From the NCBI RefSeq assembly GCF_016097555.1, contig NC_054708.1:7532160-7596159 (forward strand): a stretch of DNA of 64,000 nt. The letters are read 5' to 3'. A model generated the notes under the pieces. The model was not told the DNA's origin. It was given only the letters and a program-made list of their open reading frames with translations, and did not search any database. This document shows positions 1-48,000 of this stretch, one piece after another. Positions within the stretch are counted from its first letter, which is position 1, and each line of letters opens with the position of its first letter. The translations under genes were made by a program, and so were the position numbers. Origin of the DNA: Gigantopelta aegis. Taxonomy: Eukaryota > Mollusca > Gastropoda > Neomphalida > Peltospiridae.

Positions 1-3000
1 ACTTCTTCATACCCAAAAGAAAAGAGAGAAGTGTGATAAAGACGGGTGAAGTGAACGTTTATCAGTTCATTTTGTAATATTTCGTCATGTTCCGCGTTTA
101 TTTGGAAACGCTCCCAATTAGACTCTTGGTTTGAATCGTAATATTTCATTATCAAACATCATTACTTCCAGTAATAAAATTTAAACAAAACAATTAAATA
201 TTTTCATTAAAATGTGATAGTATTAAAGAAATGATAATATGTCATTGTTACTTCAATATCAAAGTAATAATGAGTATTTTCTGTCATTACTGAAATGATT
301 GTGACTGAAAATGAACAATGCTTGACTGGTCACTGCAAATGGGCATGACATGTGTTGATGTACAGTCAGGCACCAAAGTAAAACCACGGACTGAGAAGGT
401 CTTACGAGAGCTGTGGCACTACACAAGTCAGGGTCTTGATGTCTTTTGTGTTAGTTTGCTTTTGAAATCGGATTAGGTCCAAAATACAACAACAACTTCT
501 CACTGCTGTTAATAGAGAAAACTTCATTTCACAGGTTAGATTAGGGCCTGGATAATGCAAGCAATATTAATCTTTCTGGATGTTTAAAAGCAAGTATTAA
601 AGCTGAGTTGTGAATGTTTTAGACTGAAGCCTGATGAGCCGGTTCCGAGTCTGACATTCAATGAGGGCGATGAGAACTGGGATGACGAGTGTATTCCCCA
701 GGAGGAGATGGACAAACACTACCACAGTCTGGCCGTCACGCTGGACCAGGTGACCATCATCGACACCAAACAGAAACTCAAGACGTGTGTCCAGCATCTG
801 ACAGTGGTCAGTGTTAAACACATTCCAGGGATTTATACAGGCATTCTGTGGGTCAGAACATAGGGCAAAACAAAGTGGCATTGAAATTTCCCAATTTTTG
901 TACTAAAAGTTCCCAATATATATATTTACTTTTGTCTGTTAAATTAATTTAACAGTGGTGTACTGCATCGTTTAGTGGCTTGAAAACATATCCCAAGTAT
1001 GATTTACTCACATTAATTTTCACAATCCCACCAGACATAAGATCCTGGTGACGTATTCCACATATATTCCTGCATTCCTTCTTTCTAAATTGATGAGAAA
1101 ACATTTCTAAAAAAAAAAGTATGTTTGTAATAACCAACTATCTTGTGAAAATTATTAAATAGACTTTAATATTTTCAGTCCTTTTTCTTTTTCAAAAATA
1201 TTTTCTTGGTTTAAAAAAAGCAGAAAATAACACACAAAAATTAACGTAATTACTAATCACATTCATATGCTAGTTTTGAATAATTTTGTTCAAATTTACC
1301 TAAAAAATTGTAATTTACTAGCACCAGTTCTCTTATTTTTGGAGTGAAAAAGAGCAGTAAAGTGATTGGGGTATCTGGTTAAAGGGATCTGACATTTAGA
1401 TACTCGCAGATTATAGTATGTACTTATGAATATTTATTAAAAGTGAGTTTCAAATTTGTCCGGTAGTTAACAAAACTACTAAACATTACATGTTGAATGT
1501 TGTAAGAATGAAGATGTCTACCGATTTGTTTTTCTTTCAGCCCGGCACTGTTATTGGGATTGATTCTGAATGGAGGCCTGCTTTTGCCAATACGCCTGCA
1601 AGGTATGTGTCGTATGTGAACCTGGTGGCAGTATATTTAATATGATTAATAATAGCACTGTCATCACAGGCATATGGGATGATACTTTATGAAAAAAAAT
1701 TCCCTTGAAATTGGGGGGAGAAAGAGACAGACAGACAGACAGACAGAGACGGACAGAGAGAGAGAGAGAGAGAGACAGACAGGAATAGGTGTGTGGCAGG
1801 GAGATGGTTTCAAGGAGAAAATGGCTAGTGAAGCGATAGTGATTGATTGCAACTATTCAGTTTGGCACTGTGTTATCCCTTTTATACCCAGCTAAACTTA
1901 TTACTGTTCTATTTATTTTAATTTTAAAACAACTTATCCAAAAACTATAGAGCTGAAATGGTTAAAAGATGTCTGGCACATCACTTAGTATTTACTTAAT
2001 CATATTGATGTACTTACCTTTGTTTGACTCCCAACAGCCGATCTCTGTGTTTGTGCTGGGGTGTCATTAAACATACATTTCATTAGTATTTACTTTCAAA
2101 TTGATATTTATTATTTCAGAGTGGCCTTCTTACAGATGGCGGTGAGAGACCACGTGTTTGTCACTTGATGTTTCTAATTTCAGAGTGGCCTTGTTACAGA
2201 TGGCAGTGAGAAACCACGTGTTTGTCACTTGATGTTTATCATTTCAGAGTGGAATTGTTACAGATGGCGGTGAGAGACCACGTGTTTGTCACTTGATGTT
2301 TATCATTTCAGAGTGGCCTTGTTACAGATGGCGGTGAGAGACCACGTGTTTGTCACTTGATGTTTATCATTTCAGAGTGGCATTGTTACAGATGGCGGTG
2401 AGAGACCACGTGTTTGTCACTTGATGTTTATCATTTCAGAGTGGCATTGTTACAGATGGCGGTGAGAGACCACGTGTTTGTCACTTGATGTTTATCATTT
2501 CAGAGTGGCCTTGTTACAGATGGCGGTGAGAGACCACGTGTTTGTCACTTGATGTTTATCATTTCAGAGTGGCCTTGTTACAGATGGCGGTGAGAGACCA
2601 CGTGTTTGTCACTTGATGTTTATCATTTCAGAGTGGCCTTGTTACAGATGGCGGTGAGAGACCACGTGTTTGTCACTTGATGTTTATCATTTCAGAGTGG
2701 CATTGTTACAGATGGCGGTGAGAGACCACGTGTTTGTCACTTGATGTTTATCATTTCAGAGTGGCCTTGTTACAGATGGCGGTGAGAGACCACGTGTTTG
2801 TCACTTGATGTTTATCATTTCAGAGTGGCCTTGTTACAGATGGCGGTGAGAGACCACGTGTTTGTCACTTGATGTTTATCATTTCAGAGTGGCCTTGTTA
2901 CAGATGGCGGTGAGAGACCACGTGTTTGTCACTTGATGTTTATCATTTCAGAGTGGCATTGTTACAGATGGCGGTGAGAGACCACGTTTTTCTTATTGAC

Positions 3001-6000
3001 TGTCACGTCCTCAGCTCTGTGATGGACTCGGAAGACTGGTCTCACTTCACCAGCAGCATCTTCTGTAACCAGTCTCTTCTCAAACTTGGTAAGTATATTG
3101 CTCCTTTGTAGACAAGTTGTCTTCCATTCTGTGTCATAGGGTGGGACGTAGCCCAGTGGTACAGCGCCTACTTGATGTGCAGTCGGTGTGGGATCAATCT
3201 GCGTTGGTGGGCCCATTGGGCTATTTCTCGTTCCAGCCAGTGCACCACGGCTGGTATATCAAAGGCCGTGGTGTGTGCTACCCTGTCTGTGGATGTTGCC
3301 TATAAAAGATCCCTTGCTGCTTAAAAAGAGTAGCCTATGAAGTGACAACAGCAGGTTTCCTCTCTCAATATCTGTGTGGTCCTTAACCATATGTCTGACG
3401 CCATATATCCGTAAATAAAATGTGTTGAGTTCATTATTAAATAAAACATTTCCTTCCTTCCTTCCATTCTGTGTCACTACTTTAGAGTGTAACTAGGTCA
3501 CACTTACCGTGTAACTATAGGTTGTATTGGATTTCAGATTATAGGGATAAGATGTTGTTTTTATCTACAACCATAGCTCAATACTTATTTGTTGCTTAGG
3601 ACTTTTTGAATGTAGCTCAGCTTCTTGTTTTAAATTCAATAATTTGTGTGTAAGAAGAGAAAATGATATTTAAATTGATATATTTAATAGGATTTGGTTT
3701 TGAGGGAGACTTGAAGATGCTGGTGAACACATTTCCTAGCATGAAGGAACCTCTTCTTGAAATGAAACGAGTGATAAACATCGAAGATCTCACAAAACAG
3801 GTAACTCTTTCTTCATTTCAAGGGACATTCCTGAGTTTGCTGCATTGTAATATGTTTCCGACTAATAAAATATTTCTATGATTTAACTTATATATTAAAT
3901 ATATTTTCTTGTTTAGAATATCAGTGTCTGTATATTCAATGAGTTTCTGGTCGTCTTAATATTTGTAAGAAGCCCAAACTGGAATTTGTCTTCAAATAAT
4001 TTTGTAAGTACGAAAAAACAATATTTTAGGAAATAAAATGAAATTTAACCTAGTACAAATATTAAAATGATCAAAAACACATTTAATATAGAGCCAATAA
4101 TATTTGATGCAGAAAAATATATTTGATATGTAATTACAATCATTAAAAAGTTTCTGTTAGTCGATAACATCTTAAAAATTGTAGCAAACTCGGGAATGTC
4201 CCTTTAATATTATAGCCTGTGTCACAATGGTGGATTTTTCTCTTTATACCAAGTGGTGCACTTGTCATATGTTGGACATTAGAGCCAAAATTTAATATTA
4301 TACTCTGTGAATTTTTCTTTCTTCCATTTGTTGCACTTACCATATGTTGGACATTAGAGCCAAACTTTTAAAATTATAGTCAGTGACGAAATGATGGATC
4401 TTTCTGTGTCTACTAAGTGTTGCAGTTACCAGTATTATGTTGAACATTATAGCCTCAATTTGTGTGATGTTACCGATAAGAGTCCCTTACTAAATGAGCG
4501 ATAGGTCATAAGATTGAGAGCCCTCAATGAACATGTGGTATTTGCTATCCTCGTTATGGAAATTTGCAATATAAAAATATTTTGCAGATGTTTGGTAGGA
4601 ATAGCCAATGTTGCAGCAGAGCATTACATCTCTCAATCTCAAGTCAATAGACAGGTTGGACAATGCTGCATCTCTCAATCTCAAGTCAATAGACAGGTTG
4701 GACAATGCTGCATCACTCAATCTCAAGTCATTAGACAGGTTGGACAATGCTGCATCTCTCAATCTCAAGTCAATAGACAGGTTGGACAATGCTGCATCTC
4801 TCATTCTCAAGTCAATAGACAGGTTGGACAATGCTGCAAGATATTGAGTTGAAATGTTATGTATAGCTTTATCATGAAGAGTTACTGATCAAATTTGACT
4901 TTCATGGGGAGTTCATAGTTTTGACGGAGTTATGGCCCTTAAATTTAGGAGATATTAAAATTTGTTGGGTCTGTGTGAAAACATGTACTATGTTAGAAGG
5001 ACTCTCAGAATGCTAACAGATTATTTTCCTTTCTGTAAACAGGCCACAAACCAATGGATTGATTCTCCACTTAACCTTTCATGTGTTTGTGTTCTGTTGT
5101 ACAGATGTTTGGTGATGGCCCGGTTATGTTGAATGAAAAGCTCTTGGAAGGAGATGAGGCTGTAGCAGGTCCGAGCTGTGTGGACAGGGACGATGTTGAT
5201 GTGGATGACGACGATGATGACGAAGGTGCTATGGTGGCCAGACCGTTCAAGTTTCAGAAGAAAGAGGAGCGCGGTTTGAGTGAGCTGGTTCGTCGGTGTC
5301 TCGGGAAGCCGCTGTGTAAGATAGAACAGATGTCAGACTGGGAGAGGAGACCGCTCAGAACAGAACAACTTGTTTACGCAGGTTCGTCACGTCAAACTCA
5401 TTGATATTAAAACACAATACAGTTTATTAGTCTCCTACTGGTCCAACAAGAGGGAACTATAGGTTTTGTCTCCATTTTTCTGTCGGGGCGGGATGTAGCC
5501 CAGTGGTAAAGCTCTCGCTTAATGCACAGTCAGTTTTGGATCAATTCCCGTCGATGGCCCCATTGGGCTATTTCTCATTCCAGCCAGTGCTCCGCAACTG
5601 GTGTAACAAAGGCCGTGGTATGTACTATCCTGTCTGTGGGATGGTGCATATAAAAAGATCCCTTGCTGCTAATCAAAAAGAGTAGCCCATGAAGTAGCAA
5701 CAGCGGGTTTCCTCTCTGTGTGATCCTTAGCCATATGTTTGACGCCATATAACCATAAATAAAATGTGTTGAGTGTGTCATTAAATAAAACATTTCCTTC
5801 CTTCCTTCGTTCCTTCTTTCTGTCCTTCAGCCCTTTCTTCTGTCTATTCTGTCCATCGGTTTGTCTGTCACACATACTAGTTTTCCAGTGTCTTGATACT
5901 GAGCTGAAATTGTGTGTATAGTTATATCATGTCCAGTTTCAGATCAACTTTCACTTTCATTTTCAATTTACTCATTGTTAACAGCATTATGGCCCTTGAA

Positions 6001-9000
6001 CTTAGAAGATTAGAAAACATGTTGGGCCTGTTGGGGACATGTATTGCTTTAGCAGTACATTGAAAATGCTTGTTTTAATCTTCAAACGTACACTGTATTT
6101 TTTAAGTATTATAAAAGTATATATGGGTATATGAGGCACACAGATATTTATTTATATTATAGGCTTGCACCAGAATTTGTTTCTGGTTCATATATCCTCC
6201 ACATTTTCTCAAGTAAAACTCTCCATTATATATTTTTTAAATGTAGAAGAAATATCTAATGTGTCCTTCAAAGGTGGTTCATTTTACACAACAAAACTTC
6301 CTGGGCGCGGGTTGTCCCTCTCCCCCCCCCCCCCCCTCTCCTGGTAACCTCTCCCTCTCTTTTTTTTCGGATTAGGCTATGGGGCAATTAATTGGTAAAA
6401 TTAAATATGTTAAATTAATTTATTTTTAGGCAGCCCAGTCCAACTGCGACCAAAGTTTTAAATTTAAATTAAAATCCTAGAGCTCTGTATTTATTAGTGA
6501 CACCTTTTTGGAAAGGGCAATTTAATTTATTTATTTTTTATATTAAAGTTCCAAGTTTTATTATTTTGGATTTAAATATCAAAATTGTCCCTTAAAGTTT
6601 TCTGCCCCGAGTCAGGCCACTGGCATCCAGACGGGACTCAGGATAGACATGCTCGAAACCTTCGTGGTACATGAGCATGGAAAAATCTTCAAGTCAAGTC
6701 ATTTTACATGAGATAATATATTTATTGAATGAATACTGCATTGTGTATGCTGAAGACTAATGTTTATCTTTGTGTGTGATTTCCACCTCTTTAATGCCTT
6801 TGTTCTGTTAGAGATTTTTGGTGTTTTGTATGCTAAAGACTAATGTTTATTATATGTGTGAATTGCAGCTCTAGATGCCTATGTTCTATTAGAAGTTTAT
6901 GGTGTCCTCCTCAAGCACATTGATGCTAACCACCTTGACATTGACCCAGAGCCACTTCTATCTCACAAGTGGTGCAAACCAACACGCAACGACAAGAAAA
7001 AGGCCAAGGCAGCAGGAAAGAAACTTCCAAAACCTGAAACGGTTTGTGTTTTAACCATTTATACATAAGAAATGAACACAAAGATAAAATATACTGGATT
7101 CAACTTTTAATTTTAAAATCAAATGCAAACAGATCACAGCAAAACAAAAACCCCCAATGTTCAGTGTTTTTAGAACCTGTATATATCACTGATTTATATG
7201 CAGTGAAAGCCCTCTAAACCGGACAATCTTGGGATCAAGTAAAACGTTCAGTTTTAAGAGGTATCTGGTTTAGAGAGGTTAAATTCTGTACTGATTTTTA
7301 AAAAGTCACCATGTAAAATGTAAACATACACTTTGTATTAAACAAGTAATTTATATGGTTATCTTCATTTTTCCCAATTTTGGACTTAACATTTTTATGA
7401 TAGCGCTCTTAAGTTGGTACTTATTATTTTAATAGTGATGGCCATGTTATAACTATTAACCTGACAGTTGTTGTCTTTGTTTGTGTTCAGACAGAGACGT
7501 CGTGGTGTGTGCCTCGCTCCGGTCCGCCGATGCGCCCAAACCAGCTGCGCGTGGTGGTTGACACGATGCTGCAAGGTCTTGGACGTCACCTCAGGAGTTG
7601 TGGTGTGGACGTGAGGATTCTCGAAAATAACGAAGACCACGAGAAAACCGTACAGGTGAAGAGTACTAACACTGTTTCTGTTATCTCGGTCAGGGCAGGA
7701 TGTAGTGCAGTGGTAGAGGCCTGTGTCAGTCAGGGCAGATGTAGTGCAGTGGTAGAGGCCTGTGTCAGTCAGGGCAGGATGTAGTGCAGTGGTAGAGTGC
7801 TTGTGTCAGTCAGGGCAGGATGTGGTGCAGTGGTAGAGGCCTGTGTCAGTCAGGGCAGGATGTGGTGCAATGGTAGAGGCCTGTGTCAGTCAGGGCAGGA
7901 TGTGGTGCAGTGGTAGAGGCCTGTGTCAGTCAGGGCAGGATGTGGTGCAATGGTAGAGGCCTGTGTCAGTCAGGGCAGGATGTGGTGCAGTGGTAGAGGC
8001 CTGTGTCAGTCAGGGCAGGATGTGGTGCAGTGGTAGAGTGCTTGTGTCAGTCAGGGCAGGATGTAGTGCAGTGGTAGAGGCTTGTGTCAGTCAGGGCAGG
8101 ATGTGGTGCAGTGGTAGAGTGCCTGTGTCGGATGTGGTGCAGTGGTAGAGGGCCTGTGTCAGTCAGGGCAGGATGTGGTGCAGTGGTAGAGGGCCTGTGT
8201 CAGTCAGGGCAGGATGTGGTGCAGTGGTAGAGGCCTGTGTCAGTCAGGGCAGGATGTGGTGCAGTGGTAGAGGCCTGTGTCAGTCAGGGCAGGATGTAGT
8301 GCAGTGGTAGAGTGCTTGTGTCAGTCAGGGCAGGATGTGGTGCAGTGGTAGAGGCCTGTGTCAGTCAGGGCAGGGTGTGGTGCAGTGGTAGAGGCCTGTG
8401 TCAGTCAGGGCAGGGTGTGGTGCAGTGGTAGAGGCCTGTGTCAGTCAGGGCAGGATGTGGTGCAGTGGTAGAGGCCTGTGTCAGTCAGGGCAGGATGTGG
8501 TGCAGTGGTAGAGGCCTGTGTCAGTCAGGGCAGGATGTGGTGCAGTGGTAGAGGCCTGTGTCAGTCAGGGCAGGATGTGGTGCAGTGGTAGAGGCCTGTG
8601 TCAGTCAGGGCAGGATGTGGTGCAGTGGTAGAGGCCTGTGTCAGTCAGGGCAGGATGTGGTGCAGTGGTAGAGGCCTGTGTCAGTCAGGGCAGGATGTGG
8701 TGCAGTGGAAGAGGCCTGTGTCAGTCAGGGCAGGATGTGGTGCAGTGGAAGAGGCCTGTGTCAGTCAGGGCAGGATGTGGTGCAGTGGTAGAGGCCTGTG
8801 TCAGTCAGGGCAGGATGTGGTGCAGTGGAAGAGGCTTGTGTCAGTCAGGGCAGGATGTGGTGCAGTGGTAGAGGCCTGTGTCAGTCAGGGCAGGATGTGG
8901 TGCAGTGGTAGAGGGCCTGTGTCAGTCAGGGCAGGATGTGGTGCAGTGGTAGAGTGCTTGTGTCAGTCAGGGCAGGATGTAGTGCAGTGGTAGAGGGCCT

Positions 9001-11814
9001 GTGTCAGGTGCCATGGGTTGTAGGATCAATCACTGGCATAGCCAGCAATGTTTTTTGGCGGATTGGGGCCATGTTTTGGTGTGACAGTAAAATATTAAAT
9101 GTGGTGGTTGGGGAGGGGGTTGTGATTTGAGTGGGTCTGCTCTCCCCAACCCACCCACACTCACCTCTTTAGCTATGTTCAATGGAACCTGGGTTTTATT
9201 CCATCTCAATCAGTGCCCTCAAATGCTGTGGTATGTGCCGTCCTGTTTATGGAGAAGTGCATATAAAAGATTTCTTGCTACGTTTCAGTAGGAGTAGCCT
9301 GTGTGGTAGCAGTGGGTTTTCTCTACAAAGAGAGTGAAATTATTAATTTTAAAAATAATATACATTGTCAGCAAATATTCTAAGCAAAAGTTGGAACAAA
9401 GACATTTTGTTAATTTTTTACAATTTGTTTTGCATAAGTTTGTCTTTTAGATTCTACTGTGGAAACCAGTTTATCTGGACTTACCTTAAATGTTTACAAT
9501 ACAGTCTATTATTTGTTTTTGTAATATTCATAAGTGACAGAATTTGGTGATTTAACTCAAGATGTGTTATTTACAGATTTGTCGACAAGAGGGAAGACTT
9601 GTACTTAGTAGTGGTAAGCCCTTTGCTATGGTAAGTACCACAAGTTAATATTTATGTTAACTTCTACTGAACGTTGTATACCATGTATTACCACAATAAT
9701 AGTTAGAAGTTTATACTAATTGTTTTCAGGTTGGTTGTAGTTTTTAATTTTTTTATTTTGTGGGGGTTTGTTTTTGTGTTTGGCATCCCTAATCTGGTAT
9801 TAACTGTATTGTCTTCGTACACTTAGGTGTTTGGCATCCCTAATCTGGTATTAACTGTATTGTCTTCGTACACTTAGGTGTTTGGCATCCCTAATCTGGT
9901 ATTAACTGTATTGTCTTCGTACACTTAGGTGTTTGGCATCCCTAATCTGGTATTAACTGTATTGTCTTCGTACACTTAGGGGAGCAAGACATAGCCCAGT
10001 GGCAAAGCGCTCGCTTGATGCGTGGTCGGTTTGTATCAATCCCTGTCAGTGGGCCCCATTGGGCTATTTCTCGTTTCAGCCAATGTACCACGACTGGTAT
10101 ATCAAAGGCTGTGGTATGTGATATCCTGTCTGTGGGATGGTGCATATGAAAGATCCCTTGCTACTTATGGAAAAATGTAGCAGGTTTTTTAAGATTATAT
10201 GTCAAAATTACTAAATGTTAATAATAAATCAATGTGCTCTAGTAGTGTCGTTTAACAAAACAAACTTACATGTAGATAAATAATTATACATTTGCATCAA
10301 TTATCAGTTCATAGTTGTATTGACAGAATTTAATGTTTATATTTCAAAAATGGGTCGACAACCAAAATTAATATCTTCACTGGATGAAGGAATGTTTGTC
10401 AAATAAATGTAGGTATTTATCCATAAACCAGAGCTGAAAGATGTTTATCCAGTCTGTGTATGTTTAAGTCAAATATCGCTGTTAAAACAGTACTGACAGA
10501 TGTACAGTAGGCCATGTCACCATGTGACCATTAGTAAATAAAGAGGGTTGGATAGTTATTTGATGATTAGTTAATATCTTCAATAATTAATATTCATTGT
10601 GTTAAGTGTGACAAATCAATAAATGTTCAACAGCATGTACAAGATTTGTTATACAGATGAGGTGGTTATTTTTGTGTGTTTCAGATACGTGCTCATATAT
10701 TGCCAGAAATGTGTTACAACGTGCAGTCGGAAAAAGCGCGAGACCAAGCTGCTGAAGTATTACATCATTTCAATGTCACTGTCACACAGGAAGACATTTT
10801 CAGTCGCTGTCAGGTGAATAATAAATATAAGTTTTTACTTTTTTATATTTTAATCATCATTTTAAAATAAAATAAAATGTAGCACGAAATTTGTGTGCTC
10901 GTTATGATTTGACTTAATAATCTCCTTAACCATTAAGTTATTCCATGTACCCTTTCTTCTTTTTTAATGTGTTTTATACAAAGATTTATTTTAACTGCAT
11001 GCTTTGGCAACTTTTTAATTATCTTTAAAAAAAACCCCATTATATATTGAATGAAATCATTAACTACTTCACAAAACTAGGAACATCAGTAACTATTAGT
11101 TAACAATCACTGTTTCAAAGATAGGATTTTTATTAAATCCTTGGCTGTTTCATTATGTATTTTAATGGGTTATTGACAAATTCCTCATTTTTAAATTCGC
11201 TGACATTAGTTCTCCAAGAACTTAACTTTTCTCTTTCACATAAGATGTATTTTTAGGTATCACAAACTTTAGGACTACCACAAACATACTGAATTTGGAA
11301 AAACAAAATCAATTAAAAATTATAACTGAAGGAATTGTAAATATTGTGTAATTTAATGGTAGTTGCTAAAAGTATTTTACACTGCCTAATAACTAATTTT
11401 AATGATTTTATGAACATTTGTTTTCATTGTGTTTTTTGTCAGATTTGCAATGGCGACAACTACATCAAGATTCCAAGCCCTGATCTTAAACTTCTGTATC
11501 AGAGGCTGGATCAGCTGAAGAAGGGAAATAACTCTACTGAACAGAGTATTCCAGACAATGTGTCACGATTTCTCATCGATTACGGCATTGACTGGTCGTC
11601 TGTTCGTCTCGTCTCAAACGGCGTCTTGCTGCAGGTTGACGCCATGCCGAAGCCGATGTTTGACAAGGTTGACTTGTTCTTCTGTTGTGCCACGTGTGGG
11701 AAAGTGTTCTGGGAAGGAACCCACTTCACTCGAGTCTGTGATCAGTTCAAACATGTACTCGACGTAAACGATAAATCTAAAACTGTGTATAACAGTCACA
11801 TGCAGGAAAAGTAA
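1..11814 (+). CDS. EXD3: Exonuclease mut-7 homolog (EXD3), 3' part; 5' end outside window
   Basis: Predicted 3'-5' exonuclease of the Mut-7/EXD3 family. Coding exons by splice sites and phase: 1-45 (tentative, cut by the edge), 623-806, 1541-1602, 2952-3088, 3691-3800, 5105-5381, 6869-7041, 7491-7655, 9577-9630, 10685-10813, 11443-11814 (stop TAA). All junctions keep the frame. DEDDy exonuclease motifs are visible: VIGIDSEWRP (motif I, D and E), GFGFEGDLKML (motif II, D) and YAALDAYVLLE formed across the 5381/6869 junction (motif III, Y-x3-D). An acidic run (DVDDDDDDE) sits inside the domain. The C-terminal Mut7-C part starts at LRVVVDTMLQGLGRHL and carries two CxxC pairs (SRCQICNGD, CCATCGKVF), a zinc ribbon. 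About 570 residues are seen; human EXD3 is longer because its N-terminal region lies upstream. Family identity is certain; the substrate is not shown by the sequence. Confidence 0.93.
1728..1783. repeat. AGAC/GA microsatellite in EXD3 intron
   Basis: Runs of AGAC followed by GA dinucleotides. Reading frames on both strands here are low-complexity artefacts. Confidence 0.9.
2056..2951 (+). repeat. 64-bp tandem array copying the acceptor and start of EXD3 exon 2952-3088
   Basis: Acceptor-plus-exon-start units begin at 2120 and recur every 64 bp; 13 intronic copies precede the true exon start at 2952 (832 bp = 13 x 64). Each unit has the sequence ATTTCAG, then about 36 nt matching the exon (AGTGGC...ACCACGT), then a segment unlike the exon with an in-frame TGA. 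Copies are almost identical, differing mainly at ggcc/ggca. Every copy has a usable-looking AG acceptor and a donor-like GCG|GTGAGA 22 nt further on. Only the last copy continues into conserved EXD3 coding sequence. Confidence 0.95.
3138..3470 (+). mobile_element. tRNA-derived SINE, tail type A
   Basis: The head GACGTAGCCCAGTGGTACAG matches a polymerase III box A, followed by a box B-like GTGGGATCAATC. The body includes the family signature CTATTTCTCGTTCCAGCCAG and GATCCCTTGCTGC, and it ends in ATTAAATAAAACATTTCC plus a (TTCC)n tail. It starts 50 nt after the donor of EXD3 exon 2952-3088. Confidence 0.88.
3820..4205. mobile_element. Inverted-repeat MITE (AAGGGACATTCC type)
   Basis: The left end starts AAGGGACATTCCTGAGTTTG and the right end is its near-perfect complement, CTCGGGAATGTCCCTT. 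The inverted similarity continues inward (GTTTCCGACTAAT against GTTAGTCGATAAC). No coding capacity. It begins only 20 nt after the EXD3 donor at 3801. Related element: 37141-37522. Confidence 0.85.
4612..4850. repeat. 42-bp tandem repeat, about 5.5 copies
   Basis: The unit reads roughly CATCTCTCAATCTCAAGTCA...GACAATGCTG. Because 42 is divisible by three, several frames stay open on both strands with a 14-residue period (for example SLNLKSIDRLDNAA). It lies in an EXD3 intron, and no splice evidence supports it as an exon. Confidence 0.9.
5487..5816 (+). mobile_element. tRNA-derived SINE, tail type A
   Basis: Nearly complete copy: head GGGATGTAGCCCAGTGGTAA, body with CATTGGGCTATTTCTC and GATCCCTTGCTGCTAATC, tail ATTAAATAAAACATTTCC followed by (TTCC)n. 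Same family and orientation as 3138-3470. Confidence 0.88.
6746..6868 (+). repeat. 83-bp diverged duplication of acceptor and start of EXD3 exon 6869-7041
   Basis: The segment from 6746 matches the real junction shifted by 83 bp: TATGCTGAAGACTAATGTTT against TATGCTAAAGACTAATGTTT, then CTCTTTAATGCCTTTGTTCT against the exon start CTCTAGATGCCTATGTTCT. In the upstream copy the acceptor TTGCAG has become TTCCAC, so it cannot act as a splice site. An older, decayed case of the event seen at 2056-2951. Confidence 0.85.
7197..7280. mobile_element. Short foldback of the CAGTGAAACC-TCTAAACC family
   Basis: The left arm CAGTGAAAGCCCTCTAAACC faces a right arm GGTTTAGAGAGGTT. It is a shortened relative of the elements at 26731, 36640, 37788, 40255 and 63025. 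Confidence 0.7.
7686..9008 (+). repeat. 40-bp satellite (about 33 units) derived from a SINE box A region
   Basis: The unit is TGTGGTGCAGTGGTAGAGGC followed by CTGTGTCAGTCAGGGCAGGA. It matches the SINE head GGGGCAGGATGTAGCCCAGTGGTA, and the rest of a SINE follows the array (9009-9320), so the array grew inside the 5' end of a SINE. Units from about 8340 onward are nearly identical (variants: gta/gaa, extra g). It lies in the EXD3 intron between exons 7491-7655 and 9577-9630. Open frames through it are repeat artefacts. Confidence 0.92.
9009..9320 (+). mobile_element. SINE body and tail downstream of the box A array
   Basis: After the array come GGTTGTAGGATCAATCACTG (box B-like), an unrelated stretch, and then SINE body matches: TTCCATCTCAATCAGTGCCC, GCATATAAAAGATTTCTTGC and AGGAGTAGCCTGTGTGGTAG. 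An old, diverged copy. Confidence 0.75.
9776..9979. repeat. 51-bp tandem repeat, four copies
   Basis: TGGCATCCCTAATCTGGTAT starts at 9781, 9832, 9883 and 9934, an exact 51-bp period with essentially identical copies, so the expansion is recent. A SINE starts at the right end of the array. Confidence 0.93.
9979..10265 (+). mobile_element. tRNA-derived SINE, tail type B
   Basis: The head GACATAGCCCAGTGGCAAAG (box A) and body are as in the copies above, but the tail is the other type: AATAAATCAATGTGCTCTAG followed by TGTCGTTTAACAAAACAAAC. Confidence 0.85.
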
Positions 11815-14918: not shown

Positions 14919-17900
14919 ATGGGGCAGTTAGTTAGTGCAACCGCTAGTGCTGCCCAGCAGCAGGAATCCGGCGTGCCAGAAAAAAAAGGAGCATGGTGGT
15001 GTCGAATGCTTGCTCGTGGGATTGGCGTTATTGGTGGTTCAGGTAGGCCTGACGACTGTAGTTCATCAAGATTAACTTTGGCTACAAATGCAGTGCTTGC
15101 ACTTGTAGCAAAGTTAATCTTGGTGAACTAGCCTAACTGAAAAATAACCATAATAATTTGGTTTTCTTATAATATATTCATGTACAAATCGTGGATTAAT
15201 AGGGAGTGCTTTAAAGGAATGCTAAAGCAAGGCTGTTGGACTGGTATGCATATTCAACAATACATAATGCACATTATTGCTTAATATCAACAAGTATAAT
15301 CGTATAGTTAATTAATAAAACAGTTAAATGTGAAGGCTATTGTATATAATGGGCACAGCCATTTTGTACTATCCCAGTGAATACGCTCTCTGGCGAGCTG
15401 GTGGTTACGTAATACGTGTCACGTCAGGAATTGGTTTTCGAACTGAAGAAACAAAACATACCTGATTTTTGCGGATGCATCGCAATGTTCTGTAATAATC
15501 CCAGTAACACAGCAACGTGTATATGTGGTTTATTTTTCAAAATAAACTACCATTGTCAAAGTATTGAAATAACTGTATTATGTTTTGTATATAAATTAAC
15601 CCACATACTGAAATAATAGTTGGAGTGTTTTCTTGGTTAATTAGTGTTTTCTTTCCGTGGCCTGTACCTGTGGTTCTTGATTGGCAGGTGTATATTTAGA
15701 CGGTCCCTAGACACACTAAAAAGACGTGCGTCTTTTATTAAGATCACATGGTATTGTGTGATAACCTCAAATCGTAATGGACTTTACCAGCCTTCCTGCT
15801 TTATTACTGTAAGTAATTCTGTAAAACCCTTGATTAAGTTGACTTTCCCCATCTAAAATCACAAAATTGACCAATTACATAGTCCCAAAGAAAAGAAAAT
15901 TATCACTTGGTATCGTGAATGGTCGTTTTTGCTCAAACATGTCCTACCAATAGGCCTAATAATATGCATTTTTTCTTTGGATTTTTTAAAAGAAAAAAAT
16001 ACTATAACTCCATTTCGTTATGTTGATGCAAATTGAAATATATTTAGTTAAATAGTTTATTATACTATCAAGTCATGTATGTTGTTTTACAAGTCAGGTT
16101 GATGAAAGCGAAGCGTCTTGTCGTAAATTAAAGCAATTGTTTACACTGTGCATATGTAACCATGTGGGTTTTATTGTTTTAATGATTTTATTATGCACAA
16201 CGCACATGCACCTAAACCTTTGGCTAGGAGCTGTAGGGACATGCATTTACCTGTCTTTACATCTGACCTCTGACCAGGGACAGTGACGATCAACCAATAG
16301 ACTGGCCAGCTGTGTTTGACCCAGTTGGTGGCTATTCACTGTCACTCACCTGACATTCCTTGACACATCACGAGCTGCACAGGCCACGCACTCATCTGCT
16401 TTAATCTTAAACTGGAATAATTGGTGAGTTATATTTCTACTTTTCTAATTCACTTTACTATTTTACTAACATATAAACTGTACTTTATATGTTAGTAAAA
16501 TAGTAAAGTGAATTAGAAAACATCCCGAAAGATATTTATGTTAAAACATATATGGACCATATACAATGCAACCACCGAAGCAGGACAACAGACAATAATA
16601 GCATCATAATTCTGACTCGTTTGATATATTAGTAAGTGACCAGTTATCAGTCGGATTACAAGACGTGAAAAGCAATATCTGATAATAATAGGTAATAATC
16701 TGATTTATTATTTATTTATTACAGATCCATAGTCTGCTTGATTTGCTTCTTAAATGGTTTGTAGCAGCTGTCATTTGCAAATTGAAGTGTGAAGGTGACA
16801 GCTTAACATGAGTTGTTAATGGGACTTTGTCTCATCCTTAGGTATATAGGACAGAGCTATCCCATGAAAATAAGCTATGTAACAAATTTCTATCCTACAT
16901 GGGATATCATGCGCACTCGTTTAACATGACATCATTAGTAATTTATGACGTCATATTAATGTGAGATTGTGACATGAGGTCATTAGACACTGTTTTAAAT
17001 TAATATTTTGTTATTAAAACCTTCATGATAAAAGCTATCTTGTTAATTTGTTGTGTTTAATTTTATTTAACTCGTAAAACAAACATGGCAAATATGATAG
17101 CATAGTTTATTTATGACAAAATTATCAAATAAAAAAGTTAGTTGTTCAGCCATCTTTGTCTATTCGTGTAAAATAATGGTTTATTTACCGAATAGATGAT
17201 ACTGATACAAAAAGATTCCATCATATGCGATCATGTGGGATAGAAAAAGTACACCCTCAGTGGTGAAACATTTCGACCATGGGACTCTGCAAGCCTCGTT
17301 CCAGGTAGAAATTTCCACCACCTCGTGTATACTCTTTCTATCCCACATGACCGCATATGATGGAGTCTTATAATCCTGACAGTGACAATGAACATTTAGT
17401 TGAGTATTGTGTCACGATTAGTTATGCAAGTTTCAGAGATCACTACATAGTTTTAAAACATTGAACAGTTGGTGCTAATACATGTTCAATTGACTTGAAA
17501 TATCGCGGATCAAGATTTTGAAAACAAAAAGGTTTGCTGCCATTATAACATATTTATAACATGATGATTATAATTATATATTAAATATATTTTCAGTTGC
17601 TGTGATAACAGGGATCGTCTCACTGATCACATTTACTCCACTATGTTTGGTATCCGGGATCTTGTTAATGTGAGTATTCTTGAAGCTGTCTTCTCTAGAC
17701 TATTTATAATATTTCCCTTTTAGACTACTGGATTAATTTTTGAGGAAAAAACAACCCCAGAAAAACATTTTGTGAGGGAGCAAAAGTAGTTTATAAAATA
17801 ATGTTCACATGTGAAAGGATAAAGTATAATTTTGGGGATTTAAAAAAAACCCACCCAGTTTTTAATATTTTAGAGTAGTGATGTATGTTAAAATTAGATT

Positions 17901-32870: not shown

Positions 32871-32879
32871 ACATTTTGT

Positions 32880-38597: not shown

Positions 38598-38751
38598 GTC
38601 CCAATGTCTAAAGCTATAATTGTACACTACTTGTGGCAAACAGCACCTGTACAGCTTAGTACAAAGTGTCAAGTGAATATGTGACTATAGCACATGCAAT
38701 GCATTCTTTTTTAATCTTTCATTGATGACTTCAAAAAACAGCTGTAAAATA

Positions 38752-38757
38752 TTTATT
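38752..38757 (-). terminator. Candidate polyadenylation signal of ATAT1
   Basis: TTTATT on the plus strand (AATAAA on the minus strand), about 310 nt beyond the ATAT1 stop. One of several possible signals. Confidence 0.4.
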
Positions 38758-39068
38758 GTTTTGCACTGTATGGGACAGAATACTTTAAGCAAATCTGTCC
38801 TTCATGCCAGCTCAACCTTCCTTTAAATAACTAGTAAGACAGAGAAGGCACTTTTAAAAACTAAAATCATGGTAATTTTTCTTCTTTTTAACAAAGAAAG
38901 AAACACCCCCACCCTCATGCCCACCCCTGCTAATTTGAGCCCTAATGATGTCTTCAATGAGTAATTTGTGGCATAACCCTACTTAGCTGTGCATCCAGCG
39001 CCTGTGAACAAACTCACAAAGCCTTGCTGCTAACTGGTGCACCAAACACATCAAACTCTAATGGGCTG

Positions 39069-42000
39069 TCACCAGAGCCTGTTGTGAGCATTGTGTTTTG
39101 ATGCTATAGTTCTGTGATTGGGCACAACCCCGAATACTGTCCACGCTGTGTCTGCATTTGTGTAAGGATTGTACACCACAGGCGGGGCTGAATAGCCTCG
39201 GTACACTCCTGTAGGTATCACTGGCTGGGACGGTGGCTCACGTGGGATACTTGGACTGAAAAAGAAAAAATATATAAACATGTATATATGTATTATGTAC
39301 AAGAAATGGTGTATATCTGTGTGGTGTGTGTGTATACATATGAAGTCCACAGGAAAAACCTGTGATGTCACATTTTTAGTAAGGTGATATATTTTTATTT
39401 TAAAATTCACAATTCTGCAATTGTGGAATATATGTGCCTAAAAAAGCATAATTTACCAACTACTTTTAATAGCCTACCATAATTATAAGTTTTTAATTGT
39501 GTGTGTCACTGTGACCTTCACATACACGACCCGTATAATACTGACTATCTGTCTGGACATATACATATATATCATATATATGATACACTAATCAGACACT
39601 GAATTGTGGGCTTTAAAAATATATATATAACACTGTCACTGTGACCATCACATACATGCCCGTTATAATACTGACTATCTGTCTGGACATCATACATATA
39701 TATCATATATATGATATACTAATCAGACACTGAATTGTGGGGTTTAAAAATATATATATAACACTGTAATAAAACAAAATGATAAATATTTTTGGATTCC
39801 ATCTCATAATTTTACACTTCTGACCCAAAATCTGAGATTCACAGAATCCTGCTAAATTTGCAGCCTGGTAATTCATTTACTAGTTTATGGGTTGTTTTTC
39901 TGAATAACACATTAAAAAATTCAACACTGGTTTTGTCTAGTCTAGCTGTAGAAACAAACTGCTTTCTCCGACTGTACCTAGGTGTATTCTGTAAAACTTT
40001 AAGATGGCCGCCTCTTCCTTGATAATCCTGATGCATGTTCAGCATGTTGTAGTAGCTCTCAGGTGGATTGTCTCGAACTAGAGGAGGTAGTTTGTCTGGA
40101 AAACAAACACACGACAGTATACGTAAAAACATAGACATAATTTGGGTAAAAAATGTAACGTAAATAACTATAATAGTTGTACACTCTCTTTGTAACAGAT
40201 TATAACAGTTACAACAATTTTTTTTTTTTAATTGCTGTGGGAGACAAAGTTCGAGCCCTGGAATGTCTGGTTTTAAAGGGTTATTCATTTCAGAGAGGTT
40301 CGGTTTTGTCAGGGTTCGACAAGCCTTCAGTCCTGGCTAGTGAATGTTTGGTCTGGGCTAGTGGAAATTATTAACTGTATTACTGTAATATATTGGGCTC
40401 TAGCCAAAGCTTCTGTGAGGTTTCTCAAACATTTGTCAAACACTGATTTTGTACTAATATTTAAAACGAATTTGTGAAAAATGTCTGGTTTTGAGAGGTT
40501 TCACTGTACATATGTTTAATGCTATAAAATCATGTTAATAACTATACACTATGAGCTGAATTTACAAAGCCTGTTTATGTCTTACACGCATGTAACTACA
40601 TACAGTTACAATGCTTAAACACTGTACATATGTTTAATGCTATAAAATCATGTTAATAACTATACACTATGAGCTGAATTTACAAAGCCTGTTTATGTCT
40701 TACACGCATGTAACTACATACAGTTACAATGCTTAGACACCTGCATTTATGAAAAACAGGCGTCGTAAATTCGACCCCTTATGTTTAACTGATTACTGCC
40801 AATTATAAGTCTTCAAGTTCTATTGATAACACCATATTTTACTAGAAAATAAATGACAAGTTTCAAATATACTAATATCACACAAAACGGGTCAAAGAGG
40901 GTTCAGGGGGTGCAAATGACACCCATGCATGATTTTTTAAAAACAGTTATTTGCTTTGAAAAACTTAAAACATTAATGAATAAAACATTCTAGTTTACCG
41001 TATATCTTCGCCTATAAGTCAAATTTTTTTCACCCAAAAATTATTTTATAACTTGGGGGGTCGACTTATAAGAGGGTAAAAAAATTTCACCAAAAAATAT
41101 TACTGTTTTGGGGATTATTTTACAAGTTTTATTGTTGAAGTATGCCATGTAGTTATACTCAAATATGTTAATTTGACACATTTATTTTTTATAACCTATT
41201 TTATTTGGCATTAGAACGGTTTTGGTTATGCGAAAAAGCGTGCGATCTCACTCACATGCCAAAGACAACAGTCCACTTGGTTAAATTAACAGTCATCACT
41301 AATAGTAAAAATGTAAACAATACTAACTACCTGTTGCCTGAGTTTATTTTGAAATCTGGTCACTGGCATTAATGGTTGTTCAAACAATGTTTTGTCGGTG
41401 ATTAACTTCATGAATATTACTGAGCATTCCCTTAAAATAGACTGATCTCTGCAGTTCACTAGAGCAATAACTACATACATGTATATGTACAACACACATC
41501 ATTTGGTACAAAAACAGTGTACTTCAACAGAGTTATCCTCCTTACATGTATTAATATGGCGGCAAAATGTGATACTTTCAGTTTTATCGTAGTGATCTGT
41601 TGTCAGTGTTTATAAATAAAGTTGTTGTCTGTGCACAAAACCATCTGTACAGTACCATACAGTAACAGTCAAACAGCTTTCACTCTCTACTAAGGGAATA
41701 TTTCGTTTTGATGCTATGTAATAATGATAGTTTGATTGGAATAGTCTGATTATATTGCGATGTACAAAACGTGAAAACCGAAGTTTGTAAAATAATTTTC
41801 TTTTGTTCAAATATTGTACATTATTGTTCTCATGTGCTGAAAATAAGAAATATTTCAATATTTATAAGTTGTTTTTCATGGGTCGACTTATAAACGGGTC
41901 AATAAAAAAAATATCTTTTCAGGGCTTGAAATTAGGGACTCGACTTATAGCCGAGATCGACTTACAGGCGAAGATATACGGTAGTTCATTACAAAAATTA

Positions 42001-45000
42001 GTCAAAACATCCATGCATAAAAAATTGTGGGTTGAGAGTAAGAAGGTGCTATCTGCAATTAAAAAGTATAAAGTAAAAAGTAGAGGCAGACCTGTCAACC
42101 TTTAGTCAAGAGAAAGCAGGAGGTGCGTGTTGAAAAAGCAGGAGATTTTGTCAAAAAGCAGGAGATTTTTTAAATTCACACAATTTAACCCAAAATCGCA
42201 AGATTTAAAAAAATCATTATTACATTAAGTTATATGAATACTTTATAATGTCATATATACTTCTTAACCTTAGATCTTGGCATTAAAAAAATATATATAT
42301 ATATTATTTTTTTTTATTTTTTTTTAAGTTTAAATATTATTATGATTTAATACATATTTAAAAAAAAAAAAATATTTTATCCAAAAATGTTAAGTGCATG
42401 AACAAGAAAAAAAATAATTAATTAGTACATTTACGGTATTACACTTACATTCTTACAGGTTGCGTTACATTATCATTTGTGGTTAGTGTACCTAAGTACT
42501 AAAGACAAATTTATATAAATCTTATAAATTAATATTCAGTTTTTACTATAATGAGGAACGGTGGCATGGTACTTATTTAAAATCATTATAATGATGCATT
42601 AAACATTGTATTTTCATTAATCATAAGTAAAACCTCATTACGGACATCGTGTGAAATATACCGGAATTATACCCATTTCCGTGAGTAACTTTATGTCAAT
42701 GTCAAACACAATTTTTTTTAATTGTACAAAAATAATTTCTTGAAGTGTACCCTTATAACCAACATTTTACCGCATAAATATACAAAATTATCATTTGTGG
42801 TTAGTGTACCTAAGTACTAAAGACAAATTTATATAAATCTTATAAAGTAATATTCAGTTTTTACTATAATGATGAACGGTGGCATGGTACTTATTTAAAA
42901 TCATTATAATGATGCATTAAACATTGTATTTTCATTAATCCCAAGTAAAATCACATTACTGACAATTATGTATTCCCAAATATACCGGAATTATACCCAT
43001 TTCCGTGAGTAACTTTATGTCAATGTCAAACACAATTTTTTTTAATTGTACAAAAATAATTTCTTGAAGTGTACCCTTATAACCAACATTTTACCGCATA
43101 AATATACAAAATTAACTGACACAAGTATGTTTATACAGCTAATTGGTCTTTTCGTTGTCTTGCTGTGACATGTGATTTTAACAAGCATGTGTGTATTGGT
43201 CAACTCGGGAGTCTGGCAGTTCAGATTCGTCATAGTTGCATTATGTAATCCAGTGGGAAGACATTTTACAATTCAGAGGTGTTATTAGAACTAAATTGGG
43301 TAGGTGTTTTTTTTTTATATGGCAACAATGAATGTCAATACATAGCCTGTTGAATTAGCGGCAACACGCTTCGTAGCCATTACGATGACAACAAACATTA
43401 TAATAACATGTCATTTTATAAACTCCATGTGCTTTTTTAACAATATAAATAGGCTATCCCACAATTCTCACTTCAGCAAAGGTTAAACAGTCGGGACAAT
43501 TCGGCCTGTTACATTCTCGGAAACCGAAAGTAGTCGACATTTTCCGAATGAGAAAAAAAGGCAGAGTTACTTCCCTTCTGTTATTTTGACAAAAGAGGAT
43601 CAATTTTTTTTTTATGATTACAAAAATGTCATTTAACAGGAGAAACTGTCTCCCGCACAGGTGAAAAGGAGATTTGATCAAATACCGGGAGACTCCCGCG
43701 GAATCCGGGAGGGTTGACAGGTCTGAGTAGAGGTAGCCCCTTTTTGCTCTCAACGGATGAAACATAATTCATGCAACGTACATGTAGGTCTATAATTATG
43801 GAAACAATTTGATGCTATTTCATGTAATTAACAACAGAATATGTTACACACAGTTGAAATGGACACCAACACCCAAGTGTGTCTAGATCTGTCTCTAGTT
43901 TTAAAATCTTACCTCTGCTGTTCTGTTTCCTGAGTGTTCTGGGTAACTGCAGTGTTGGCGGTGGTGACGGTGTAGCACCATGGCGACTGTACCGATTGTA
44001 AACTGCATCAGCTGTCTGCTGGTCGTATCCATTAGGGACACTTTATTATTGGAGAAAAAAACCCCATTAAAACTAAGGTTAAAGTTTAATTACAACAAAT
44101 TAAATTATTTACATTCTATAGTCTGCTAAAATATGTTAAATTTATTATAAAATATAATATACCAAAAAAGTATATAACAATCCAATACAGTACTTAATTT
44201 TGTTTTTCATATCCCATCTAATACAGTACTTTTGTTTGTCATATCCCAGTCCAATACAGTACTTACTTTGGTTTGTCACATCCCAGTCCAAAAAAGTATT
44301 TACTTTTGTGTCATATCCCAGTCCAATATAGTACTTACTTCTGTTTGTCATATCCCAGTTGACAACAGTATTTTTGTTGGTCATATCCCATCCAATACAG
44401 TACTTTTGTTTGTCACATCCCAGTCCAATACAGTACTTACTTTTGTTTGTCATATCCCAGTCCAATACAGTATTTTTGTTTGTCATATCCCAGTCTAATA
44501 CAGTACTTTTGTTTGTCATATCCCAGTCCAGTATAGTACTTACTTTTGTTTGTCACATCCCAGTCCAATACAGTACTTAATTTTGTTTGTCATATCCCAT
44601 TCAATACAGTATTTTTGGTTGTCATATGCCAGTCCAATACAGTACTTTTGTTTGTCGTATCCCAGTCCAATACAGTACTTTTGTTTGTTATATCCCAGTC
44701 CAATACAGTACTTACTTTTGTTTGTCACATCCAGTCCAATACAGTACTTACTTTTGTTTGTCACATCCCAGTCCAATACAGTATTTACTTTTGTGTCATA
44801 TCCCAATGCAATACAGTACTTACTTCTGTTTGTCATATCCCAGTCCCGTTGTTTTCTGTGCAAGCATGGTGGGTACTGGTGATATCATCAAGTTCTTTAT
44901 TGCATTATCCTACAAAAAAGAGAGTAAATATATTGCAAAAACTCAACTAATGAGGCACAATATGTGTAGTTTGCTGATAATATGTTTGTAAAGTTCTCCA

Positions 45001-48000
45001 AAATAATGTAGATATAGAGCATAATACATGAGTGGCCGTTAGATACCATTTATCTCACGAGTTGTTTTAAAATGTATCAAACAAGCAAAAGCGAGTTTGA
45101 TACATTTTTAAACGAGCTGTGAGATAAATGGTATCTAACGGCCATGAATGTATGCATTAACAAGTATGTAAAGTCATAAATAACACATGGTGTTCTCACC
45201 AATGGGTGTGTAACAAATTATGTCAATCACTAAATACAATACACACATTTAGAATAAATTAAATCTGGAAGTAAACGCAATCAATTCTTACATGCATAAT
45301 TTATGTATGTATCTATTTCAACAATAGATATTTTATGTCTAAAACCTATTATGTAAAAACATAAATGTTGCTATTCTTGATCTAATAGTATTTTATTTAA
45401 GATAAGGTATGCAATATAATGAAATTAGTAACAATGATGACTGTTCAAATATTTTGAATAATGAAGGAAAGGATTATTAGCTTAATGCTAACTCAGCACA
45501 TTTTACATGTACACCTAATATATACATGTATTGTTAATTCAATACTTGGTTGGGAGGAAACCCACTGTATCCTCATAGAACACTTTTATATCTACTTCAC
45601 CACAGACAGGATACCACCAATCGTGATGTGCCAGTCATAGTGTACTAGTTGGATGGGAAAACATTAGCGTCCACTGGTAGTTGATCCTAAGACCTACCGC
45701 TCCTCAAGAGAGCACTCTGCCACTCAGCTATCTCCCAGCCCTGAATAACAAGGGACAAGCCATGGCAAACACACCTCATCCCGATACCCATCAATTACAC
45801 TGATAGATCTGTTCCTAGATAAAGGACGGCTTGGTTTCCCAGCGGACTGATGAATCACGTTCCCTGATAACGGACGGCTCAGTTTCCCTGATGACTGAGA
45901 GCCATTCTTAGAATAGCCAGGAACATACGACGTCTTCGAGCTGTATGGATCTACCAATTATACACAAATAAATACCAGTATTACAAATGCTGCAAATACA
46001 TAGAAATGCTTTCATTTTTAAATGTACTATATTTAATACATGTAATTAACTAATTAAAAAACAAAGCAAACATCTATGCTGAATCTAGCCACCATTAAAG
46101 GAAGTGAAAACAAAATTGATGAATCTGTCTTTAAGACTTATAGTTACAGATTATTTTCATTTCTTCTATACATTGGATCTTAGATAAGAAGTAAAAGAAT
46201 TATTGATGACTCTGTCTTTAAGACTTCCATTTCCAGATTACCTTCATTTGTCCTGTACATTGGAGGCTTGCCTGAAGCATTCTGGTTATTGTTCATGCCT
46301 GAAACAACATAACAATACAAGTTAATATTGCCTTGTTAGTGTAGGGAATGTTTTGTTCTACATCATGTCACCATTAGCTACGCAAGTTTCAGAGATTATT
46401 ATGCAATTCTTAAACATTAAATAGTAGTTGCAAATCAATTTTTAATTGTTGCTATTCAATTATGGGTTTTTTAAAGTTCCCTGTATAATAGGAAAATATT
46501 TCACACAAAAGAAAAGCAGGCAAACAAAGAATCTGACATGATATTTCAAAGAGTTTCATAAATAGGTATAACTTGTCAGACTGTTCTCAATTCTTGCAAC
46601 ATTTTCAAACCTGCATGTGGATGGAATGAATGAATAAATGAATGTTTAATGAAACTCCAGCACAAAAATTCCCATCGGCTAATGGGTGCATATGGACAAA
46701 GTCTGACAAATGATTAGCAACACACTCACCTAGTTTCTGTGAGAAGAATCCATCATACACAACAAAATTGTTCATCTGTGGTATTTCCGTTCTCAGGTTG
46801 TAGTGCTTGGCGAGGAAGGATAAAAACTTGTGAGATGGTTTGTCAACAGCAAGATGCAGTGGGTTTACATTCCTGTCCTGATAACAATATAAAATTTAAA
46901 AAAAGTAAAACACCTAAGTAGATTGATTGAAACATTTTATAGTAATGTATATGAGATGGTTTGTCAACAGCGAGATGCAGCGGGTTTACATTCTTGTCCT
47001 GATAACAATATATAATAAAGAAAAAGTAAAACATCAAGTAGACTTGATTTAAACATTTTATAGTATATAAGATGGTTTGTCAACAGCGAGATGCAGTGGG
47101 TTTACATTCCTGTCCTAATAACAATATAAAATAAAGAAAAAGTAAAACACCAAAGTAGATTGATTGAAACATTTTATAGCATATATAATACAAAAGGATT
47201 GGGTAGACGTTCTCCAGCTTACAGGGCCTTCTCCTAACCAAAGCAGATGTGACACTTGATCTGCAGCGTGAGAGAAGATGACGTTGCTTGTTAAAATGGT
47301 ACACTGTTTTTATTAACAGCAAAGGGCACATATTAAAGCCGCACACCCTAGTTCCATCCAGCGAAAATAAATTATAATTTGGTTAATCTACAAACCTGTA
47401 ACACACAAAGATCACGTTTTTATCAAATGGAGTGAAAAAGCAGGTTTTATATCAATAAATACCATGGGAATCCCCATGTCCCAATTGCTTGAAATAATTT
47501 TGAAAGTTAGTATTCTGATGTCACCGGTAGATGTCGCTCGAAGCACAACAATGCCTACGTCACGACAAATTTCACAGACTTGGGGGTGCGTTCGTTTCAC
47601 CTCTCCTGGACATGTTCCAACTGTTCTGTCCTGGTTGTATCCCCTCTTCAGATATCGTAAGACTATTATTGGTTTTAAGGGTTTGTAACATTTTGTATTG
47701 AGACACTTACTTGTCTGAACTTTATTGTTACTGAAAATGTTCACGAACTGTGAAGAAAAATCTCACAAATGAACAACAAATCGGATGTTGATTGCGCGAA
47801 CCGTGCACGAGAAAACAAACCGAACCAAAATGATAACGGTCACGTGATATACCAACGTCTAAAACATTGAAATGGAAATATCCCCTCTAAAAATAGATTG
47901 GACCTCGCTTGCTTAACGGTTTTTTCTCGACAACACGTCTTGTGAAAAAATGCAAAAAATGCATTTCGTGGTTTTACAAATATCACGATTACCAAAAAGC

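Follow-up and report, generated by a model that had tools for sequence, protein, structure and literature searches.

The stretch of the genome of the peltospirid snail Gigantopelta aegis analyzed here, 64,000 nucleotides of contig NC_054708.1 (positions 7,532,160 to 7,596,159 of the forward strand; hereafter the window), holds four genes, whose exons were read by hand and joined. In two of them, EXD3 and ATAT1, tandem arrays lie directly over exon-intron junctions (Table 1). The original prediction, made from the sequence before this analysis, had located five such arrays and given their unit lengths and copy numbers; all five were found, each over an AG or a GT, and the observation is confirmed. 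The joined exons of EXD3 and of ATAT1 each gave a single open frame, and Pfam recognized Mut7-C and a 3'-5' exonuclease domain in the former product and the Mec-17 acetyltransferase in the latter. A deposited G. aegis alpha-tubulin N-acetyltransferase-like protein was identical to the joined ATAT1 product at 440 of 440 residues; thus that gene model uses the three array-bearing junctions of ATAT1. Among the matches listed for EXD3 (120 of 155) there was no G. aegis protein, and the alignment of EXD3 with its clam homologue was free of gaps at both array-bearing junctions.

Table 1. Junction-spanning arrays, the exons that they adjoin and the genes of the window (positions within the window).
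Feature	Positions	Strand	Unit and copies	Identity	Junction spanned	Remarks
EXD3 64-bp array	2101-2991	+	64 bp x 13.9	97%	EXD3 acceptor 2951/2952	
EXD3 83-bp duplication	6741-6905	+	83 bp x 2	81%	EXD3 acceptor 6868/6869	intron copy without decoy AG
ATAT1 exon 5 array	46831-47186	-	~118 bp x 3	89%	ATAT1 exon 5 acceptor 46877/46878	two decoy acceptors intact
ATAT1 exon 6 duplication	46101-46264	-	87 bp x 2	81%	ATAT1 exon 6 donor 46241/46242	decoy GT now AT
ATAT1 exon 8 array	44172-44849	-	33/37 bp x ~19	~80%	ATAT1 exon 8 donor 44823/44824	
EXD3 exon	2952-3088	+				first ~40 bp part of 64-bp array
EXD3 exon	6869-7041	+				beside 83-bp duplication
ATAT1 exon 5	46730-46877	-				
ATAT1 exon 6	46242-46298	-				
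ATAT1 exon 8	44824-44909	-				
EXD3 (exonuclease mut-7 homologue)	exons 623-11813	+				5' end cut off; hand-read exons, Pfam
Putative calcium channel flower homologue	14919-20542	+				Pfam CG6151-P
ATAT1	57745-39058	-				hand-read exons, Pfam
Presumed GNL1-like gene	from 62502	+				first exons only

The 64-bp array of EXD3 contains 13 upstream copies with an intact TTTCAG/AGTGG acceptor in each, and the array at ATAT1 exon 8 has kept the donor GT in 8 of 10 matched intron-side copies. The expectation that introns collect decoy splice sites thus held for three of the five arrays, and failed for the two two-copy arrays, in which the decoy AG or GT has been lost. One of these, the 87-bp pair of ATAT1, is missing from the Tandem Repeats Finder (TRF) list (score 50) and was detected by repeat search and self-BLAST. 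That the extra copies always lie on the intron side had also been noted; it is a geometric necessity, because the copy adjoining the exon body is the exon by definition.

Self-BLAST detected 14 arrays in the window, 5 of them over one of the 51 junctions. With this set, sliding whole arrays at random gave a mean of 2.86 spanned junctions (P = 0.14), sliding the founding units after collapsing the arrays gave 0.97 (P = 0.002), and placing the units randomly within their own gene gave an expectation of 1.37 (P = 0.0075). The corresponding P values with the TRF list, in which 4 of 14 arrays span a junction, were 0.28, 0.0067 and 0.021, and the baseline from introns of the same genes was 1.57 for the 5 of 51 (P = 0.02). 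Whole-array rotation was set aside as a null, because arrays grow by displacing their neighbours; since expansion pushes flanking sequence aside and overwrites none of it, the founding-unit null is the fitting one. The window had been picked post hoc for the pattern, so that its counts are no proof, and the real test lies in 270 kb from elsewhere in the genome.

This sample consisted of 21 stretches of 10 kb at round positions fixed beforehand (210 kb) and six added later, which adjoin six gene-bearing ones, three with such arrays and three without; its loci are given below by L numbers. To call exons, a model of codons and splice sites was trained first on the genes of the window and later on additional exons (of the training exons, that from L026 had been read in a wrong frame and was only partly used). 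The model made 149 calls, of which 90 were non-repeat, and 27 exons were kept, amounting to 49 junctions; the L018 exons 7517-7656 and 3680-3764 were read by hand. Twenty-eight doubtful junctions were dropped and restored as a control, and other calls were excluded as likely transposon or chance frames. A junction was scored as spanned when an array covered at least 5 bp on each side, and each of the 100 curated junctions was inspected for its AG or GT. Of 20 exon translations submitted, Pfam named 12 (E 0.01 or better), gave no name to six (two each from L012 and L018, and those from L013 and L007) and matched two more weakly (E > 0.01).

Nine of the 49 junctions elsewhere were spanned, compared with 1.3 expected from genome-wide array density and unit length (P = 5e-6) and 2.4 when introns in the same genes set the expectation (P = 5e-4). 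The latter baseline, defined as founder-unit coverage 61-800 bp into the same introns (4.0% overall), is the stricter one because these introns hold arrays at a somewhat higher density than the genome sample does. Together with the window (5 of 51, 1.0 expected from density), 14 of 100 junctions were spanned against 2.5-4.0 expected (P = 4e-5 for the intron baseline of 4.0), and random rotation in collapsed coordinates, with a mean of 2.85 and a maximum of 9, reached 14 in 0 of 4000 trials. An excess was also present elsewhere in the 21 pre-chosen stretches alone (7/34 vs 0.9), with the gene bearing three arrays left out (6/35 vs 0.9) and with the 28 doubtful junctions, none of them spanned, restored (9/77 vs 2.0, P = 2e-4); all junctions including the doubtful ones gave 14/128 vs 5.1 on the intron baseline (P = 6e-4). 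Counting both ends of all 90 calls, a set with many false exons, some drawn by the arrays themselves (L003, L004, L008, L015), gave 17/180 vs 4.7. The concentration of arrays at junctions is thus about 5-fold relative to genome density and 3.5-fold relative to the adjoining intron, and both boundary types are affected (donors 8/47, acceptors 6/53). The original prediction had staked itself on boundary-spanning repeats being commoner than the density of tandem arrays implies, and the several-fold excess elsewhere bears this part out; its interpretation as a whole is supported in part.

The same arrangement was seen outside the window. In L001, a 90-bp unit is repeated in 11 copies behind the donor of an immunoglobulin (Ig) exon, with GTGAGTAG present at the donors, and a second Ig exon of the same gene is also at a spanned junction; an antistasin exon in L020 has a 40-bp unit and a thyroglobulin exon in L027 a 77-bp unit, and L027 contains in addition a two-copy duplication over an acceptor (L027 4110). 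An EGF/zona-pellucida-like gene in L018 bears arrays at three junctions (3793-7565 on the minus strand, with 841-1749 and 9058-10000), and its donor array, ~45 copies of an 83-bp unit, fills a 3.7-kb intron. At two of these three L018 junctions, the alignment with a paralogue continues without interruption; a homologue search with this gene returned four paralogues from the same species, the L018 locus itself not being among them. The 102-bp unit at an L012 exon also ends in AG, so that each copy looks like a mini-exon. Judged by eye, the ~102-bp unit at L012 7349-7868 is composed of a GT...AG stretch of ~43-51 nt and a 55-nt exon piece, the makings of a cassette exon. In L021 (1-6989), ~100 copies of a 70-bp satellite occupy one 10-kb stretch.

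The other features of the window include the gene at 14919-20542, which we take to be flower (Pfam itself gives CG6151-P), and the gene from 62502, which we take to be GNL1-like. An array of 33 copies of 40 bp (7689-9007) lies 33 bp beyond an EXD3 donor, which it does not span; it looks derived from the head of a repeat common in the window that resembles a short interspersed element (SINE). At 9776-9980, a 51-bp unit is present in four copies (TRF 100% matches), the end of which is the start of a SINE-like element. By eye, an element resembling a miniature inverted-repeat transposable element was seen at ~41000-41985, its terminal inverted repeats being CGTATATCTTCGCCTATAAGTC and the near complement of this sequence, and two apparent ~1-kb diverged copies of one interspersed element were seen at ~15190-16140 and 54960-55920.

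The position profile of the founding units peaked at the junction itself. Coverage reached 14% in the 20 bp to each side of the junction and 11% at 20-40 bp; into the intron it was 7% at 41-60 bp and then 0-7.5% per 20-bp bin up to 800 bp. The coverage of 4.0% at 61-800 bp compares with 2.2% for the whole window and 3.0% for the other loci. Two readings had been offered with the original prediction, that splice junctions are preferred sites of duplication or that only intron-side copies escape selection; because introns away from junctions are not depleted of arrays, the former is favoured over the latter. Spanning arrays were no more diverged than the others (median identity 86.7 vs 85.2, P = 0.8), and when counted alone, the arrays with 88% identity or more spanned 7 junctions vs 1.1 expected. 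A longer detectable life of exon-anchored arrays was therefore rejected as the cause, spanning arrays being no older and the young ones being enriched by themselves. Mutability driven by GC content was likewise rejected (GC 0.372 in arrays vs 0.367 in the rest).

Analysis of the copies revealed that the splice dinucleotide is kept in 99 of 108 matched intron-side copies over all arrays (the EXD3 6869 copy was unmatched at the threshold and is outside the 108). Intact decoys are present in the arrays at EXD3 2952, at ATAT1 exons 5 and 8, and in L001, L012, L018, L020 and L027, and use of any one of them would place an in-frame stop in the mRNA (99/99). Simulated duplications at other junctions added a stop in 84% of cases at acceptors and 66% at donors, and by simulation the unanimity over 11 arrays has a P of ~0.03. 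Selection for stop-bearing decoys was considered and not adopted, since simulated duplications also often add stops. All three two-copy duplications (EXD3 6869, ATAT1 exon 6, L027 4110) have lost the decoy AG or GT. On the simplest reading of the sequences, splicing passes over the decoys or the products of their use are discarded, and decoys decay when they are not homogenized. The suggestion that the copies could be a source of new splice sites found no support here, and the one deposited model that allowed an exact comparison, that of ATAT1, ignores the copies at its three array junctions.

The original prediction knew of no named phenomenon that matches; a name exists, however, in the 'mirages' or mirage minisatellites of amphioxus. 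These have been described at Adh3, the globins BflGb6 and BflGb9 and troponin C, with PGBD5 likened to them, and according to the passages available they leave regular splicing undisturbed and yield normal mRNAs (PMC3087553, PMC3902484). The globin paper considers, in the part available, that mirages are possibly general in cephalochordates, with an unclear mechanism, and that they may be a route to intron gain (PMC3087553). As far as those descriptions go, mirages and the snail arrays share a repeat unit that contains the exon-intron boundary, with the exon-attached copy as the junction; an effect on both 5' and 3' boundaries; retention of AG or GT in many, not all, copies; and units of tens to ~160 bp. 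In the snail, the boundary lies within the unit in the 5 window arrays and in 9 others, at junctions checked for AG or GT, donors and acceptors both being represented (8/47 and 6/53) and most copies keeping GT or AG (99/108). As regards splicing of the host mRNAs, the deposited ATAT1 protein fits the exon-attached sites at three junctions, and EXD3 and two L018 junctions align through. The snail arrays differ from the cephalochordate mirages described in those passages in that the host is a mollusc and in that their rate was measured over 100 junctions against the tandem-array background. No mollusc report of junction-spanning arrays was recognized in the open-licence literature searched; the mollusc host, the frequency and the comparison with the array background are new here.

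Several related systems can be distinguished from these arrays. Tandem genomic duplication and internal gene duplication as sources of introns are reviewed in PMC3443670, which cites Gao and Lynch 2009 and Hellsten 2011; as outlined there, such duplication resembles the snail arrays in being a short in-gene tandem duplication with splice signals, but it makes a new intron in the transcript, whereas the snail arrays duplicate an existing junction into an existing intron. No new intron from duplication was found at the five window arrays, all of which are at junctions of existing introns, and neither the ATAT1 nor the EXD3 product is altered. Internal tandem repeats of human segmental duplications (PMC2812944) are likewise boundary minisatellites able to change gene structure; they concern recent human paralogues, and the available passages do not describe them as clustering at junctions. 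Direct repeats near splice sites (Rogers and Bendich 2025, PMC11782384) are likewise more frequent than chance near intron borders, but, according to the abstract, they are 4-30 bp long, lie at or near the two borders of an intron and are read as insertion scars; they are not head-to-tail arrays.

Taken together, we consider it likely that these arrays are mirage minisatellites, which are common in the vent snail G. aegis and several-fold concentrated on its splice junctions; the concentration may be mainly mutational in origin. A short segment (~40-145 bp) including the junction would be duplicated head to tail; the copy on the exon body would stay the functional junction, and further copies would pile up in the intron by slippage or unequal exchange, the processes by which tandem arrays expand. 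Exon definition favours the exon-attached splice site, and splicing would normally take place there, while a transcript in which an intact decoy was occasionally used would acquire an in-frame stop and go to nonsense-mediated decay. Junction duplications may be tolerated because the mRNA stays unchanged, and splice junctions may initiate tandem duplication more frequently than other parts of genes, for example when nicks or breaks linked to transcription occur there and undergo fill-in and rejoining. The repair of two neighbouring nicks in opposite strands can reportedly yield short tandem duplications, to judge by the title of a 2016 study by Schiml and others. Mutational targeting of junctions, taken by itself, is nearly an even call, falling slightly short of one.

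A number of points weigh against this reading. The harshest count elsewhere, with the 28 doubtful junctions restored and the intron baseline applied, gave 9/77 vs 3.7 (P = 0.012). The junctions of one gene are not independent, and the binomial P values are therefore optimistic; moreover, the exons were curated with the arrays already known, and the pattern had been spotted by eye before the formal test. Pfam names three of the nine spanned-junction exons elsewhere (L001 2417-2677, L020 442-551, L027 6799-7122); the three from L018 are backed by paralogue alignment, which for the last of them crosses a gap, and coding score, splice signals or phase were the grounds for accepting L001 3954-4241, L012 and L027 3964-4110. 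In the 14 spanning arrays, exon sequence makes up 0.26-0.77 of the unit, with a mean of 0.55; this hints that the duplications are centred on the junction, but the P value for the share being tighter than uniform rises from 0.001 to 0.010 and 0.086 as the detection limit is set at 5, 10 and 15 bp. An annotation-free test was divided: a very strong donor motif was present in 9 of 89 array units (a count that includes a few arrays twice) vs 2.2 expected, the overall distribution of donor scores in the test was not significantly shifted (P = 0.065), and acceptor motifs in the 89 units showed no excess (3 vs 2.9 at the top threshold, 5 vs 12.6 at a lower one). The supposed silence of the decoys is drawn from one deposited protein model and from homology, and germline nicks or breaks at junctions, together with their link to transcription or splicing, are something we infer.

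Among the other explanations, the one that survives best, though we think it improbable, holds that duplications are frequent across whole exons, that coding-internal ones are removed and that those at the edges survive. It would fit the absence of any array wholly inside an exon (0 of 111 arrays over the 55 curated exons, 9,420 bp, with 14 overlapping an exon end). It also predicts units composed mostly of exon, however, at odds with the exon share given above, which never exceeded 0.77 in the 14 arrays, and the overall base composition of the arrays is not exon-like.

A little less probable is selective retention of the copies as spare or reinforcing splice sites, or as extra U1 binding near the donor that would guard against early polyadenylation in long AT-rich introns. 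Retention of GT or AG in most copies of the multi-copy arrays and the excess of very strong donor motifs in array units are what such selection might leave. Homogenization within arrays nevertheless accounts for intact copies without selection, and the loss of the decoy in all three two-copy duplications speaks the other way, as do the stops that decoy use would give and the involvement of donors and acceptors alike.

It is less probable again, and in our view unlikely, that a neutral background of dense short arrays falls over some junctions by chance and is noticed there because exons are easily recognized. The genome sample is indeed rich in arrays (TRF and self-BLAST together found 111 in 334 kb, with 60,099 bp or 18% of the bases), the whole-array sliding of the window was unremarkable with either the blastn or the TRF set, and the harshest count elsewhere gave P = 0.012. 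Against chance stand the founding-unit counts, both overall and elsewhere (9/49 vs 1.3-2.4), and the peak of coverage at the junction itself. That long-read errors or collapsed haplotypes made the arrays is very improbable: one amphioxus mirage was, in the passage available, aberrantly assembled in a draft genome (PMC3087553), but scattered substitutions distinguish the snail copies, each gene has units of its own and in 7 of the 14 spanning arrays the copies are no more than 74-84% alike. In addition, as described in the available parts of PMC3087553 and PMC3902484, the amphioxus PGBD5 repeats agree with Sanger data that were examined again and with new Illumina data, and amphioxus Adh3 is reported to show somatic instability.

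If the preferred reading of mutation at junctions holds, splice junctions may be germline hot spots of short tandem duplication through breaks tied to transcription or splicing, with roughly one junction in 7-9 bearing an array, up to 44 decoys beside a single site for the spliceosome to disregard, and the arrays serving as a nursery of exons and introns; we offer this full version tentatively, as a possibility short of probable. Mirages have so far been described gene by gene in lancelets, and they are now found at 14 of 100 curated snail junctions (14 of 128 with the doubtful ones). Two questions thereby become testable: what draws short tandem duplication to junctions, and how a single site is chosen by the spliceosome when as many as 45 are nearly identical. 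The finding also presents the arrays as natural intermediates for the gain of introns and exons by duplication.

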